From: an uncultured Candidatus Melainabacteria bacterium
GTDB lineage: Bacteria; Cyanobacteriota; Vampirovibrionia; Gastranaerophilales; Gastranaerophilaceae
DNA length: 64,000 nucleotides
Direction: 5' to 3'
NCBI GenBank assembly: GCA_947090755.1
Contig: CAMUPF010000006.1
Location: 1-64,000, forward strand
Under the pieces are notes generated by a model that saw nothing but the letters and a program-made list of their open reading frames with translations, made no database searches and had not been told where the DNA came from. The number at the start of each line of letters is the position of its first letter. Position 1 is the first letter of the stretch. The position numbers were made by a program, and so were the translations under genes. Positions 1 through 63,750 of this stretch are shown piece after piece.

Positions 1-392
1 CGCTTGTACCCGCAGTTGCGTCTGCAAGCTGGTAGGTTCCATAACCACCAAGTGACGGCATTAGTGCCAAACCTTGAGAAAACCGTGCATAAAGTGCTTT
101 TCGCTGTGTGTTCCACGTACGTTCGTTAATGTTGCCCGTCAAACTAGGCAAAGTAATCGCCGCAACTACGCCGATAATCGTTAATGACAGTAAAATCTCT
201 GCCATCGTGAATGCAACGACTGCGCCTCGCGTAAAACGCCGCCGCTCGCGCTTGCGCCGAAAGCGCGGTTTCGCCGTCGCGCGCTCGACTCTCCACTTGC
301 TAAAGCAAGTTACGCGGCTCTGCTCGGCTTGCCCCCCCCCCCCTACTGTTCAGGCCCATATTACAAGGGGTTTCAAGGATTTGTTTTTTCAT
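1..392 (-). CDS. Prepilin-like protein, copy 1 (partial, runs off left edge; G-tract out of frame)
   Basis: Type IV pilin/pseudopilin-like protein; only the 5' part is in the window. The prepilin motif FTMAE (cleavage before F, Glu at +5) and hydrophobic helix are encoded from about 211 downward, followed by the family segment NINERTWNTQRKALYARFSQ. The ATG at 392 is chosen because GGAGG lies six bases upstream. It reads a short polar leader into 12 G (343-332). As assembled this frame stops soon after the tract (TAG); with 11 G it runs open for 62 codons into the Met of FTMAE. The leader holds GC-rich inverted repeats such as ACTTGC-TTTA-GCAAGT. I infer an exported pseudopilin under slippage control; export by a type II or type IV pilus machine is family knowledge, and no machine genes are in the window. 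Confidence 0.75.
332..343 (-). repeat. Homopolymer G12 tract in prepilin leader (copy 1)
   Basis: Twelve C on the plus strand, so twelve G in the mRNA, lie between the SD-backed ATG (392) and the FTMAE motif. The ATG-to-pilin-Met distance is 187 bases, one more than a multiple of three, so loss of one G restores the frame. Confidence 0.9.
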
Positions 393-14339: not shown

Positions 14340-14368
14340 TTGACTAAGTATCGAAAATAATTTAAACT
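14340..14368 (+). promoter_or_regulatory. Promoter of prepilin copy 2
   Basis: TTGACT (14340-14345), a 17-base spacer and TAAACT (14363-14368). AGAAAGGA follows as ribosome-binding site before the ATG at 14391. Confidence 0.65.
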
Positions 14369-14390: not shown

Positions 14391-15642
14391 ATGAACAAAA
14401 GAGATGTATTAACTTATGCAGGGGGGGGGGGGGAGCCGGCTGAGCCGGACCTCTAGCATAGACCCGTGCGTGCGGACGAAGAAACCGGCGAAGCGTGTTA
14501 GCGGATGTGAAGTGCCGGTGCGGCCTCACGCGAGTGAGGACGGCAGGGCACGAAACTGGACGATGCCGCCGTTGCGACCAGAGCGTGAGCGTCGGGAGCG
14601 GACAAATCGCGCAAGTGTTGATAACACTTGCAAGGGATTTGACAGGCGGGAGAACCAACGTTGCGCATTCACAATGGCAGAAATCCTTCTATCCCTAACA
14701 ATAATCGGCGTAGTGGCTGCGATAACGCTTCCGTCACTGACCGGAAACATTAACGAACGCACATGGAACACACAAAGAAAAGCGCTTTATGCCCGTATGA
14801 GTCAGGCAATCGCGTTAATGCCGTCACTAAACGGTTATGGAACTTTAACCGAGGGTAATGATTCAACATCTGCCGTGGATACGGCCGCCGAAACTTTCGT
14901 CACAGAAGGACTTTCCAAAGTTCTTAAGATTAACAACATCTGCGACTATAAGCATTTGGAAGACTGTGGTATTCCATCCAATATAACTCCGTATTCAGGT
15001 AGTATTATTGCTAAATTTCCGGAAACATTAAAGGATTATAATAACAGTCTGGTTTCTGTTTCTTTTATTGACGCTGCCGGCGGAACTTGTTCATACTCTC
15101 AAACCAATACTAAAGTCGCAGCGTTTGAAACACAAAACGGTGAGAGTATAGCCGTTTATTATAATCCGAATTGTTTGTCAGATTTAAAATCCGGTGATGC
15201 TTGGGATCCGGTACAGGCACGTCTGTGTGCTAATTTCGTCTATGATTTAAATGGTACTAAGGGGCCTAACAGTTACGGAAAAGATATAGGGTTTATTTCA
15301 GTATTTTATCCGACGGATAGTGATGTTGTTGCTCCGTATGTATATATGCATGATTCCGGCTCTGCACCTCAAGTATCTTCTGGGAATGAACAAAGTGCTT
15401 CCGAGCTTTGTACAGCTACTCTTGGCGGAGAGTATAGGGTTCCAAATAAAAATGAAGCGGCCGCTATGTTTGTTAACAGAGTGCTGATTGGCGGAAGTTT
15501 TATTGGCGAACACTACTGGACTTCCGGCATAGGTATATATAACGGTACAACCAGAGGCTCGGCGCAATCAATGTATTCAGGCGCCGAATTGTTAAAATTA
15601 CGCTCGGAATCTGTAAGGGTTCGTTGCGTAAAACGTAATTAA
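14391..15642 (+). CDS. Prepilin-like protein, copy 2, with long repeat-bearing leader (out of frame at G13)
   Basis: The mature part starts at the FTMAE motif (ATG of MAE at 14674): cleavage before Phe, Glu+5, then a hydrophobic helix and NINERTWNTQRKALYARMSQ. The C-terminal domain has NICDYKHLEDCGI, a CANFVYDLNGTKGPN-like block, RVPNKNEA, YWTSG and RVRCVKR, recalling the Lcl/FISUMP lectin-like end. The start at 14391 is chosen for AGAAAGGA and the promoter. In this assembly it enters 13 G and stops at TAG; with 12 G the frame is open to 15642. An ATG at 14416 is in frame now but lacks an SD. The leader would be about 92 residues, mostly encoded by a structured repeat. Probable exported pseudopilin; function unknown. 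Confidence 0.75.
14421..14433 (+). repeat. Homopolymer G13 tract in prepilin leader (copy 2)
   Basis: Thirteen G ten codons after the SD-backed ATG. Twelve would put ATG 14391 and the FTMAE motif in one frame. The hairpin CCGGCTGAGCCGG begins three bases downstream. Confidence 0.92.
14437..14655 (+). repeat. Structured GC-rich repeat inside the prepilin leader (repeat copy D)
   Basis: The hairpin CCGGCTGAGCCGG and a GC-rich arm are followed by the repeat core at 14509-14559: AAG-TGCC pairs with GGCA-(CGAAA)-CT, enclosing the hairpin CTCAC-GCGA-GTGAG and the conserved GGCAG. Downstream come a second stem region, the palindrome AAGTGTTGATAACACTT and the end TTTGACAGGCGGG, both shared with the copy between rplW and rplB. 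The whole repeat has no stop in the pilin frame, so it is translated when the leader is on. Confidence 0.7.
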
Positions 15643-24781: not shown

Positions 24782-24898
24782 GTCCGAAGGATTTTCGCGA
24801 TACGGAACGTGAATGAAAATCCTGTGTGGCGTATTAGACAGCGCAGCCGCAGTGCGACACTGCGTGAGCGGTGGCGGCAGGCGGCGGAGAACTGCTTT
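24782..24898 (+). ncRNA. Candidate structured RNA repeat, copy A (5' leader of the next gene)
   Basis: The first stem is GGATTTTC...GAAAATCC with loop sequence GCGATACGGAACGTGAA. The core (24843-24895) is GCAG-CCGC pairing with GCGG-(CGGAGAA)-CTGC, enclosing CACTGC-GTGA-GCGGTG and the conserved GGCAG. Copy E at 63635 has the same architecture with compensating changes in both core stems. AAGGATTTT occurs at 24787 and again at 24901, possibly a target duplication. No promoter is evident between the preceding terminator and the element. Confidence 0.7.
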
Positions 24899-24911
24899 TA
24901 AAGGATTTTAG

Positions 24912-25733: not shown

Positions 25734-25762
25734 TTGACAAGTGATAAAACATGCTGCATAAT
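25734..25762 (+). promoter_or_regulatory. Promoter of prepilin copy 3
   Basis: TTGACA (25734-25739), 17-base spacer, CATAAT (25757-25762). Copy 4 has the same -10 CATAAT and spacing. Confidence 0.8.
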
Positions 25763-25833: not shown

Positions 25834-26842
25834 ATGAAAAACAATATTGTAGACATTTCGACAGGGGGGGGGGGGGAGTGCCTTAACAGGCACATCTAAA
25901 CGCTTAGCGTTTACCATGGCTGAAATTCTTCTATCCCTAACAATCATCGGTGTGGTCGCTGCGATAACGCTTCCGTCTTTGACCGGTAATATTAACGAGC
26001 GCACATGGAACACACAACGCAAAGCGCTTTATGCCCGTTTCTCTCAGGCAATTGCCCTTATGCCGGACGTGAACGGGTACGGTACGTTGACAGAGGGCAC
26101 GGATTCAAGCGGCTCAAAAGTCGTTACCGAAGACACAGTTGCCGAAACTTTCGTTACGGAAGGCTTGTCTAAAGTTCTTAAAATAAACAATATCTGCGAC
26201 GCTGCTCACCTTGCTGACTGCGGAATTGTTAGTACTATTAATACCCAAACTTCTGCTGTTTCTACACCGGTTGATTGGTCGGGCTTGAATTCGCAGATGG
26301 TTAGTACTCAATACGGCGGTTGGACATCTTACTCGATGATTAATTCAAAGGCGGCGGCATTTGAAACACAAAATGGCGAAAGCATTGCGGTTTATTATAA
26401 TCCTGCCTGTCGAACATCTGCGGATTTGGTTACGGGATATCTGGTGGCGCCATTTGTTTGTGCCAATTTTCTGTATGACTTAAACGGAAATAAAGGCCCT
26501 AATACTGTCGGCAAAGATATTGGTTTTATAACGGTGCTTTATTCCGCGGATTCCAATGTTGTTGCGCCGGTGCCTTTAATTCAAACTAAGGCCGGTTACT
26601 ATGAAGACGCCATAAAATTTTGCCGTAGTCAGGATGATGCGCGGCTCCCGAATAAAGAAGAAGCTATTTCATTGTGGCTAAACAGGAAATTTTATGGGGG
26701 TATAAATTATATATTTTATACAAGTTCTTCACCCGGTGCCGCAAATAGAATCATAATTATTGACGCACCAAATGGTGGTATGATGGGTTCTTGCAATAAA
26801 ACAGAATCCAATGGTGTTGTTGCAAAATGTGTTAAACGATAA
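25834..26842 (+). CDS. Prepilin-like protein, copy 3 (out of frame at G13)
   Basis: Start at 25834 chosen for the promoter, AGAAAGGA and a leader like those of the other copies. Reading through 13 G it stops at TAA (25897); with 12 G the frame runs MKNNIVDIST-GGGG, a short basic piece and LA|FTMAE, giving a 25-residue leader, the most conventional of the set. The pilin part from ATG 25916 has the usual helix, NINERTWNTQRKALYARFSQ, NICDAAHLADCGI, CANFLYDLNGNKGPN and RLPNKEEA, ending AKCVKR. Two palindromes (GTGCCTTAACAGGCAC, AAACGCTTAGCGTTT) lie in the translated leader. An exported pseudopilin is inferred. Confidence 0.78.
25864..25876 (+). repeat. Homopolymer G13 tract in prepilin leader (copy 3)
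   Basis: Thirteen G directly after codon 10. The distance from the ATG to the FTMAE Met is 82 bases, one over a multiple of three. Confidence 0.92.
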
Positions 26843-35472: not shown

Positions 35473-35501
35473 TTGACTAAAGTGAAAAAATAATACATAA
35501 T
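35473..35501 (+). promoter_or_regulatory. Promoter of prepilin copy 4
   Basis: TTGACT (35473-35478), 17-base spacer, CATAAT (35496-35501). AGAAAGG follows at 35510, seven to ten bases before the ATG. Confidence 0.8.
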
Positions 35502-35526: not shown

Positions 35527-36607
35527 ATGAAAAACAAACTTGTAAGTATTTTGTCAGGGGGGGGGGGGGCCGGCTGAGCCGGTTCTATATACGGGTTCCG
35601 AGCTTGCGGACGACGTGAAATTTAGCGCGAAGGGCGGAGAGCCGGCAAAAGCCGCCTTTACTATGGCCGAAATCCTCTTATCATTAACAATCATTGGCGT
35701 GGTTGCTGCGATAACTTTGCCGTCGCTAACGGGCAACATTAACGAACGCACATGGAATACACAACGCAAAGCGCTTTATGCCCGAATGAGTCAGGCAGTA
35801 GCGCTAATGCCGGCGTTAAATGGCTATGGCACTTTAACCGAAGGTAACGAATCCGCATCTGCCGTGGACACCGCGGCTGAAACCTTTGTCACAGAAGGAT
35901 TATCAAAAGTTCTTAAGATAAACAATATCTGTGATGCTGACCATATCCATGATTGTGGTATAGCTTCAATTGTCACTACTATGACCGGTGTAACTACTGC
36001 GGTGCCGAAAAAATTAAGTGAATTAAATCCTTCACTTACGTCCGTATCTTTCTATGATTCAGCTACCATAGGACAGGGAAATTACAGCGCAATAGATTCT
36101 AAAGCTGCAGCATTTGAAACACAGAATGGTGAAAGTATTTTGGTGTTCTATAATCCAACCTGCTCAACGATGGATGTGGATGTAAACAGAAAGTTCGTTC
36201 AGCCTAAAATTTGCGCTAATCTGGTGTATGATTTGAACGGTAACAAAGGCCCTAATACAGTCGGTAAAGACATCGGTTTTATGACGTTCATATCTTCGGT
36301 TGACTCTGTTGTGGCTGCGCCTGTGCCGTACGTGAGAAGGTTTGACGGTATAAAAGTCGAATACGCTTCTTCTACCTGTACAAATAGTGCGGGTGGAGAA
36401 TACAGGATCCCAACTATGGAAGAAGCTGCAGCTTTGTTTGTAAATAAAAATCTTATTCGTGAAGATTGGCCAAACGGGCACCTCTGGACATCAACCAAAG
36501 TGACCAAATCCGGTTACCTGACAAATTATGTAATGGTGATGGGGCATGGTGAGTATAGAATTCCCGTTCCTAACGCGGGGTGGAGTTTATTATGCGTTAA
36601 ACGCTAA
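35527..36607 (+). CDS. Prepilin-like protein, copy 4 (out of frame at G13)
   Basis: The ATG at 35527 follows the promoter and AGAAAGGT. As assembled it meets TGA right after the 13 G; with 12 G the frame is open: MKNKLVSILS-GGGG, then about 29 residues encoded by GC-rich palindromic sequence, then KAA|FTMAE, a 43-residue leader. The pilin from ATG 35663 has the helix, NINERTWNTQRKALYARMSQ, NICDADHIHDCGI, ANLVYDLNGNKGPN, RIPTMEEA, LWTSTKV and LLCVKR. An in-frame ATG at 35615 gives an open frame now, but has no SD. Probable exported pseudopilin. Confidence 0.77.
35557..35569 (+). repeat. Homopolymer G13 tract in prepilin leader (copy 4)
   Basis: Thirteen G after codon 10, followed at once by CCGGCTGAGCCGG, a hairpin. 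Twelve would open the frame. Confidence 0.92.
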
Positions 36608-42239: not shown

Positions 42240-43184
42240 TTATCTTTTAATGCACCATATTCTAAATCTATTTTCAATACCTAATGTATTTCGTCTATAA
42301 TTATAATTCCCCAAGTACCAGGCTTTATCAGCAGACACTTTTGTACTTGTCCAATAATGGCTGTTCCCTTGTGAAAAATCAATTCCTATAAACTCTTTGT
42401 TATAATACAAAGCTGTCATTTCATCTCTGCTTGGCAGTCGGCTTTCAGCATCCTGTAGTTTACACTGTCTTATTGCTTCGTTGTATGTATAGGTGTTTCC
42501 GTCTTGTTTCATTAAAGGCACGGGCGCAACCAAATTTGTATCTGACGGGTACATCGCGGTCATAAAACCCATGTCTTTACCGATTGTATTAGGACCTTTG
42601 TTTCCATTCAAGTCATAGATAAAGTTTGCGCACATATAAGGGTGTATGTAATCACTTGAAGTTTTGTCAATATCTGAAATACAGCTTGGGTTGTAAAAAA
42701 CCACAATACTTTCACCATTATTTGTTTCAAACGCGGCAGCATTAGTGTTTATGTGCGCTTGGGGGTTGATGAATGTATGTGAGGTTCCATCAGTTCCGCT
42801 ATAAGCAAATTCATTGGTAAAAGTGCTGTTCATTTCTTCTAAGGTTTTTGGAAAGCTATGTTTACTTCCGCTAAGGTTAGTGAATGACGATGCGATACCA
42901 CAATCAGGCAAATGTTCATTGTCGCAAATATTATTAATTTTTAGCACTTTAGAAAGCCCATTTGTTACAAAAACTTCTCCGGCATTTGAGTTAGTTTCTT
43001 CTTGAGTTACACCAATCCCGTAACTATTCAATGCCGGCATGAGTGAGATTGCTTGACTCATTCTGGAGTATAGAGCTTTACGTTGAGTATTCCAGGTTCT
43101 TTCATTAATGTTGCCAGTTAAACTGGGTAAGGTAATTGCAGCAACTACACCAATAATTGTTAGAGAGAGTAAAATCTCTGCCAT
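42240..43184 (-). CDS. Prepilin-like protein, copy 5 (start region broken or locked off)
   Basis: The pilin frame runs from the ATG in GFT-MAE to RIWCIKR, with NINERTWNTQRKALYSRMSQ, NICDNEHLPDCGI, CANFIYDLNGNKGPN, RLPSRDEM and YWTSTKV, so the domain is intact. The upstream start (ATG 43252, after AAAGGA and a good promoter) reaches TGA at codon 10, before the 11-G tract. In the pilin frame itself TGA directly precedes the tract. No tract length can therefore join ATG 43252 to the pilin, unlike the other copies. Translation from 43184 would lack the basic prepilin leader. Restart, readthrough or a decayed leader are the options. Confidence 0.7.
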   Translation of the reverse strand: MAEILLSLTIIGVVAAITLPSLTGNINERTWNTQRKALYSRMSQAISLMPALNSYGIGVTQEETNSNAGEVFVTNGLSKVLKINNICDNEHLPDCGIASSFTNLSGSKHSFPKTLEEMNSTFTNEFAYSGTDGTSHTFINPQAHINTNAAAFETNNGESIVVFYNPSCISDIDKTSSDYIHPYMCANFIYDLNGNKGPNTIGKDMGFMTAMYPSDTNLVAPVPLMKQDGNTYTYNEAIRQCKLQDAESRLPSRDEMTALYYNKEFIGIDFSQGNSHYWTSTKVSADKAWYLGNYNYRRNTLGIENRFRIWCIKR

Positions 43185-43191
43185 TGTAAAG

Positions 43192-43202
43192 CCCCCCCCC
43201 CC
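43192..43202 (-). repeat. Homopolymer G11 tract upstream of prepilin copy 5
   Basis: Eleven C on the plus strand directly before the codons for GFTMAE on the minus strand. Confidence 0.9.
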
Positions 43203-43276
43203 TCACCGGGAAGCCACAAAAATCAGGGGTTTTCAGACTTTTGGTTTTTCATAGTTTAATCCTTTCTTTTTTAATT

Positions 43277-45718: not shown

Positions 45719-45873
45719 CCTGCGTCAGCCGGTGTAGCGCCGGTGTCGACACGCGTGAGCGTGGCGAGCAGGGCGCGGAACACTACGTCACCGCCGTTGT
45801 GAGCGAGAACGAAAGTGAAGCGAACGAACAAATTTTACAAAAGCAAAGTTTTTAGGAAAATTTGACAGGCGGG
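45719..45873 (+). ncRNA. Candidate structured RNA repeat, copy B, between rplW and rplB
   Basis: Core 45734-45786: GTAG-CGCC pairs with GGCG-(CGGAACA)-CTAC, enclosing CACGC-GTGA-GCGTG and GCGAGCAG. A second half follows: CCGCC (about 45791) can pair with GGCGG near the end TTTGACAGGCGGG, enclosing variable stems. Shares both halves with the copy in the prepilin leader at 14437 and the first half with copy C after rplR. It adds over 150 bases to a spacer inside a ribosomal operon. Confidence 0.7.
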
Positions 45874-63634: not shown

Positions 63635-63750
63635 GTCCGAGCAAATCTCGCGATAAGGAACGTGAACGAGATTTGGGAGTGGCATATGAGACAGCGCAGT
63701 CGCGGGTTGACTCGCGTGAGCGAGGCAAGCAGGCGACGGAGAACTGCTTT
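63635..63750 (+). ncRNA. Candidate structured RNA repeat, copy E, leader of the Fic gene
   Basis: First stem AAATCTCG...CGAGATTT with loop containing ATAAGGAACGTGAA. Core 63696-63747: GCAG-TCGC pairs with GCGA-(CGGAGAA)-CTGC, enclosing CTCGC-GTGA-GCGAG and CAAGCAG. Against copy A the stems differ by compensating changes. TTATAATTATACT lies just upstream, so the element would begin close to the transcription start and fill the 5' leader of the fic message. Confidence 0.72.

Follow-up and report, generated by a model that had tools for sequence, protein, structure and literature searches.

A large dispersed family of type IV pilin-like genes with G tracts in the leader, probably switched by slippage, in a Candidatus Gastranaerophilus species

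In the genome of an uncultured Candidatus Melainabacteria bacterium (GenBank assembly GCA_947090755.1), type IV pilin-like genes form a family that is very large and dispersed, and most members have a long G tract between the start codon and the FTMAE cleavage motif of the encoded prepilin. These tracts are probably slippage switches, by which a whole family of putative adhesins would undergo translational phase variation. This reading is founded on a leader that is gated by the tract, on differences in state between species, and on purifying selection acting on out-of-frame copies; tract-bearing non-pilin genes of the same genome fit it as well. The window, i.e., the whole stretch of 64,000 nt that was analysed (contig CAMUPF010000006.1, positions 1 to 64,000), belongs to contig 6 of a nearly complete genome of 1.78 Mb. 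The host is a Candidatus Gastranaerophilus species, from a genus that includes Ca. G. phascolarctosicola Zag_221 from koala.

The window contains five prepilin genes with tracts of G13, G13, G13, G11 and G12 between ATG and FTMAE. They had been described in a sequence-only reading, whose coordinates could be verified, as could the AAAGGA/GGAGG-type ribosome-binding site at the ATG of all five copies and the distance from ATG to tract, which is 30 nt in the copies at 14391, 25834 and 35527 and longer (49–50 nt) in those at the left edge and at 43252. The variable leader preceding FTMAE was likewise found as described, with a tract-to-motif distance of 1 to 234 nt in the window copies. On the basis of the segment before the tract, two classes are distinguished: (i) class A, with ten codons (n = 30 nt), and (ii) class B, with 49 or 50 nt in the window. 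A G9 run is absent from all 100 dinucleotide shuffles of the window.

Copy 2, a class A gene on the forward strand, consists of the start with ten codons (MNKRDVLTYA; 14391..14420), a G13 tract (14421..14433), a GC-rich leader of 234 nt (14434..14667) with no stop codon in the FTMAE frame versus 8 and 2 in the other frames, and the mature pilin (14668..15642), composed of the FTMAE helix and a variable C-terminal lectin-like domain; its promoter is just a looser TTGACT box near 14340. Two further forward-strand genes have the same ten-codon architecture. Copy 3 comprises a promoter (TTGACA-17-CATAAT; 25734..25762), the start with ten codons (MKNNIVDIST; 25834..25863), a G13 tract (25864..25876), a leader of 33 nt with two small palindromes (25877..25909) and the mature pilin (25910..26842), and copy 4 a promoter (TTGACT-17-CATAAT; 35473..35501), the start with ten codons (MKNKLVSILS; 35527..35556), a G13 tract (35557..35569), a leader of 87 nt (35570..35656) and the mature pilin (35657..36607). 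Both class B copies are encoded on the reverse strand. Copy 1 has 49 nt from the start to the tract (MKKQILETPCNMGLNS; 344..392), a G12 tract (332..343), a GC-rich leader of 120 nt (212..331) and a mature pilin that is cut by the window edge (1..211). As assembled, copies 1 to 4 are in the +1 frame and become fully open with one G fewer, i.e., at G12 in copies 2 to 4 and at G11 in copy 1. Copy 5, with 50 nt from the start to the tract (43203..43252), a G11 tract (43192..43202) and the mature pilin at 42240..43190, is frame-shifted by +2 and additionally carries an in-frame TGA at codon 10, about ten codons past the ATG, at a position occupied by a Cys codon in sister leaders.

An alternative start codon, an ATG 5 nt upstream of the tract that shares the reading frame in some +1 genes (e.g., at 14416, where the YA codons read TATGCA), was considered and ruled out, given that it is without a ribosome-binding site of its own and is missing from most copies. 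An Rfam scan of the window, intended to reveal any known RNA or intron within the leaders, returned two tRNAs and nothing else. Among other features of the window, a lone G9 run (547–555) is situated just past the 3′ end of a minus-strand ORF (560–928) and belongs to no prepilin; a partial 5′ tRNA copy stands directly before an intact tRNA (1073–1147), the whole spanning 973–1147, with GC-rich sequence between them; and GC-rich repeats (GCGTGAGCG...GGCGGAGAACTGCTTT) occur outside the prepilin genes at 24840–24900, 45753–45789 and 63714–63750 in a genome that is otherwise AT-rich.

The same arrangement recurs genome-wide, which confirms the observation made in the window and exceeds its earlier description. 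There are 115 G runs of at least nine residues and 123 matches to PF07963 in the genome, 68 of the latter above the cut-off. With 118 stretches around G tracts and PF07963 matches as the sample behind the gene counts, at least 113 genes were found to be family members with the FTMAEILLSLTIIGVVAAITLPSL start; their listed ORFs sum to 105 kb, corresponding to ~6% of the genome DNA. Contigs of this genome frequently end at or near tracts, as is expected for near-identical repeats with homopolymers. Tracts of G11–G15 are also present in non-pilin genes (L034:1502, L035:1593(-), L065:1502, L066:1502, L066:2613, L096:1593(-) and L115:1593(-)). From their translations, one of these genes (G14, open) was named as acyltransferase-like and one (G13, out of frame) as acetyltransferase-like; a large ORF carries G15, also out of frame, and there are several ORFs of no assigned function besides.

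The leader between tract and motif behaves as coding sequence. In 80 genes of this genome (6406 nt of leader), the FTMAE frame contains 4 stop codons, confined to two genes, versus 133 and 111 in the other frames; in leaders of related genomes, the counts are 0 versus 32 and 46. Since the leader is stop-free solely in the FTMAE frame, the tract lies inside translated sequence and its length gates the prepilin, which supports the interpretation given in the sequence-only reading both here and in the relatives. As in contingency loci, a repeat tract within an ORF thus fixes the reading frame. In out-of-frame copies, the FTMAE frame is usually closed within a few codons upstream of the tract, so that the ATG before the tract is the start that is protected by selection. 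Family members devoid of a tract begin like ordinary prepilins (MKKHSAFTMAE, MKKAFTMAE, MKRAFTMAE); tract and leader, therefore, resemble a segment added within a normal prepilin leader.

The leaders themselves vary widely. From tract to FTMAE they measure 1 to 246 nt in the genome, and they are often GC-rich and palindromic; in tract-bearing members, the leader comprises up to about 100 residues. For the 234-nt leader of the copy at 14391, 20 matches including itself were found in the genome, several of them located in the leaders of other pilins and some elsewhere than in pilin genes. In two related species (G001 and G003), leaders read ...AFTMAARLSRSTES...LAFTMAE, with lengths that stay in frame with FTMAE, and in L242, L236, L253 and L257 of these species an extra AFTMA is present upstream of the insert and again downstream of it. 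Judged by their sequence, the G001 and G003 leaders resemble the outcome of an element entering at the codons of the cleavage site and duplicating its target.

The encoded proteins carry the N-terminal FTxxE motif and hydrophobic helix of type IV prepilins (PF07963), although the window copies scanned alone gave a weak match. Across 12 compared members, F1, T2 and E5 are invariant, and most of the helix is invariant or nearly so. In the mature part, Pfam returned, besides PF07963, weak or sub-threshold matches alone, including one to Lcl_C in the copy at 43252 (E 2e-4, below the family cut-off). An AlphaFold model (pLDDT 76) predicts a long pilin helix (residues 3–50), a middle domain and a C-terminal domain. 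For the last of these, the best Foldseek match is the C-terminal domain of Legionella Lcl (8q4e; E 8.7e-4), and C-type lectins come next with weaker matches, which is consistent with an Lcl-type or C-type-lectin-like fold. Variability within the pilin is greatest in its last 100 residues. From the modelled fold, the pilins may be expected to serve as adhesins. For processing and assembly, the genome offers one copy of a prepilin peptidase (PF01478) and four matches to PilC-type proteins (PF00482).

Expression signals are conserved throughout the family. Of the class A genes, 101/133 have a TTGAC-N15-19-nAnAAT promoter no more than 110 nt ahead of the start, as do 34/45 of class B (shuffles predict 0.6 and 0.4, respectively); a strong Shine-Dalgarno sequence precedes the start in 120/133 and 43/45. 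With sigma-70-like promoters and Shine-Dalgarno sequences conserved, the genes are likely transcribed singly and gated at translation. The proposed mechanism is as follows. Each gene, having its own promoter and ribosome-binding site, would presumably always be transcribed, and translation from the ATG through the G tract and the GC-rich leader would reach the cleavage motif; arrival in frame would need a tract of one length class modulo 3 (G12 in the common architecture). By adding or removing G residues, replication slippage would switch every gene ON or OFF separately from the others within individual cells. The long leader would subsequently be removed by prepilin peptidase, so that inserts in the leader would leave the mature pilin unchanged, and the mature pilins would display a C-terminal lectin-like domain that differs in every copy. 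In this scheme, we infer the rate of slippage, the expression of ON and silence of OFF genes, the assembly into pili and the binding of ligands.

Comparison with related genomes is in line with switching. The class A start followed by a tract, a short leader and FTMAE occurs in six of seven genomes of the genus (29, 3, 45, 3, 52, 0 and 14 places), with a single further occurrence in another genus; G001 and G003 score low on account of very long leaders, not of missing tracts. Runs of G11 or longer number 108 here, and the other species have 84, 96, 93, 72, 0 and 117. Within the family, such runs are also common in several further genera, and the order's remaining families have almost none. Tract, long leader and prepilin motif occur together in other genera too, with different 5′ ends. 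Orthologous pairs differ in their tracts, i.e., L246 (G13) and L279 (G12) at 85% identity, L161 (G12) and L189 (G11) at 82%, and L228 (G13) and L229 (G17) at 94%. As is typical of contingency loci, orthologous tract length in class A, hence, differs among relatives; class B keeps one phase. The expectation of the sequence-only reading that relatives would carry tracts at orthologous genes was borne out for slots that are shared, with other lengths and phases, but it failed for some orthologues, which are tractless, and for one species (G005), which has no tract at all. In the assembly of G004 (MOYE01), many tracts coincide with scaffold joins that place NN within the G run, which makes tract lengths unusable at those loci. 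Another public assembly of the set (G002, JAMPIJ01), a MAG titled Fusobacterium sp. NALB_7963_5, has the family and groups within the genus; its title looks wrong.

The phases are distributed unevenly. Among the 80 genes of this genome with a clear start, 17 are ON, 57 are +1 and 6 are +2, assembled homopolymer lengths being liable to err by one. Class A tracts are G11 in 4 genes, G12 in 12 and G13 in 39, plus two others; in G002 they are G10 (1), G11 (6), G12 (13), G13 (7) and G15 (1), with 15/28 genes ON, and in both G002 and G004 ON is commoner in class A than any other single phase. Class B is +1 in 38 of 45 genes from six species (binomial p 2e-12 against 1/3), and it keeps this phase despite varying lengths of the tract (G9 to G12), of the start-to-tract segment (46, 48, 49 or 50 nt) and of the leader; the tract is mostly G12 where n plus leader equals 1 mod 3 and mostly G11 where it equals 2 mod 3 (Fisher p 7e-7), with both p values inflated because the copies are related and share ancestry. 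One class B copy, L106, has an interrupted tract (GGGGGAGGG) and is possibly a locked allele. The strong +1 bias is not explained by simple free slippage alone. Either the ON state is usually counter-selected and slippage with a deletion bias leaves the tracts a single base longer than ON, or programmed slippage allows low-level reading of +1 genes.

The second of these options leads to programmed recoding as a rival explanation for the family, one that we regard as unlikely. It implies that slippage of RNA polymerase on the G run, or a net +1 shift of the ribosome, provides a steady low yield of prepilin, with class B as a constitutive low-level set and class A as a set that could additionally switch by DNA slippage. 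Net +1 shifts at G runs are known from herpesvirus thymidine kinase mutants and were counted in its favour, together with the excess of +1 in class B, the adjustment of tract length to architecture, and the fact that pairs in which both copies are +1 are under purifying selection, strong in L072/L173 (dN 0.09, dS 1.2), with L223/L222 also conserved. However, counter-selection of ON combined with deletion-favouring slippage yields the same bias; the prevalence of ON in class A of G002 and G004 does not suit recoding, the shared ancestry of class B makes the binomial test overstate the independence of the copies, and inspection by eye did not show a conserved stimulatory sequence.

A separate finding concerns the pilin bodies. 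Genes flanking the pilins are often 90–99% identical between species, with a pilin in the same slot (e.g., window 14391 with L196 and L284, and 35527 with L274 and L227). Nevertheless, in 126 slot pairs drawn from relatives that were sampled incompletely and in part picked for having a tract, same-slot pilins are no more alike than random ones, neither over residues 101–230 (53.2% versus 53.2% identity) nor over the last 100 residues (35.9% versus 35.3%). The short-leader class tends to follow the slot (62 A-A, 6 B-B and 6 mixed among the typed pairs). Given a dN/dS near 0.1, exchange of bodies between slots is a better explanation than fast point change. The pair L228/L229, with a dS of 0.11 in the body and of 1.1 in the first 60 codons and with tracts of G13 and G17, is likely a recombinant of a 5′ cassette and a body. 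A gene-conversion archive as in Neisseria was rejected, since shared blocks of at least 100 nt at 96% identity between variable regions were not found within the genome and a promoter and a Shine-Dalgarno sequence accompany most copies whose start is readable. A two-layer reading—class A switched by slippage, class B held by selection at one G over, with low-level product from programmed slippage or frameshifting on the tract, and bodies reassorted among inherited slots, each slot consisting of promoter, start and tract—is likewise improbable as a whole.

Very improbable is the view that most out-of-frame copies are dead pseudogenes or homopolymer miscalls of the assembler. It can point to contig ends within 200 nt upstream in 29/113 copies, to the related assembly scaffolded with NN inside tracts, and to stop codons in the copy at 43252 and in the leaders of L085 and L131. 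However, an ORF of at least 280 aa is intact in every gene with enough DNA, irrespective of phase (ON 50/50, +1 110/110, +2 16/16), the variable part of closely related pairs shows a median dN/dS of 0.11, and the leader is open in exactly one frame. Intact ORFs and a dN/dS of about 0.1 indicate that out-of-frame copies are not dead and are expressed often enough for selection to act; on these grounds, the pseudogene reading was rejected. Miscalling, moreover, would track absolute tract length, whereas the bias tracks phase across G9 to G14. Least credible is a tract serving mainly as a G-quadruplex or transcription signal that drives pilin recombination (cf. gonococcal pilE), with secondary frame effects: bodies and slots do separate, same-slot bodies across species being as unlike as random pilins, but variable regions within the genome lack the long shared blocks of a gene-conversion archive, and the tract always lies inside a coding leader of conserved frame.

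The principle of the preferred reading, slippage switching, is already known from gonococcal opa, pilC and the pili of Bifidobacterium. In Neisseria gonorrhoeae, up to 12 dispersed opa genes contain CTCTT repeats in leader-peptide codons (PMC5354566, PMC3745409). Like the present family, these are dispersed adhesin genes, singly transcribed and switched by repeat number in the leader codons, so that none, one or several are ON per cell. They differ in having pentamer repeats and about 11–12 genes for outer-membrane proteins with ordinary signal peptides, in contrast to the G tracts, the over 100 genes of the prepilin class and the long leaders inserted between tract and cleavage site found here. 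Neisseria pilC is turned on and off by frameshifts in a homo-G tract in the signal-peptide region (PMC5354566); it shares with this family the frameshift switch by a G tract in the signal region of a pilus protein, but it is represented by one or two genes and encodes a pilus assembly and adhesion factor rather than a pilin family. In the gut commensal Bifidobacterium, a G11–G12 tract lies between secretion signal and pilin of sortase pili; its slippage was measured by maximum depth sequencing, and the ON form was enriched in mice (PMC9187656). Those pili, however, are of the sortase (LPXTG) type in a Gram-positive organism, with one or two loci per genome. Poly-G contingency loci also make up the phasomes of Campylobacter and Helicobacter (PMC6321876, PMC2823697). 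There, as here, many homopolymer tracts per genome reside in phase-variable genes, which are of mixed kinds in those organisms. We know of no prepilin family of comparable scale in either of them. Rickettsia palindromic elements are repeats located in frame inside protein genes, whereas the inserts described here are in the leader between tract and cleavage site, and their mobility is putative.

In the papers searched (open-licence literature), no such family has been described for this lineage, in agreement with the sequence-only reading. Pili of Gastranaerophilales figure there only as incomplete gene sets or, for one termite species, as pilA-D and pilT (PMC5877343), and they are not mentioned by Soo et al. 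2014 (PMC4040986). What is new is the lineage, a copy number above 100 per genome, the prepilin class with leaders inserted in frame, the phase-locked class and the decoupling of slots and bodies.

If the slippage reading is true, a gut bacterium with a small genome puts ~6% of its DNA into independently switchable pilus adhesins, and a very large number of surface states would be possible. Contingency-locus biology on a large scale, which among the lineages known to us was previously found outside the Cyanobacteriota, would then extend to this phylum, and to a commensal. The family also constitutes a marker system, since gut metagenomes that already exist allow G counts to be read at more than 100 loci per genome. 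The phase-locked class B and the exchange of bodies between fixed slots, finally, raise questions that are made testable by sequence alone.
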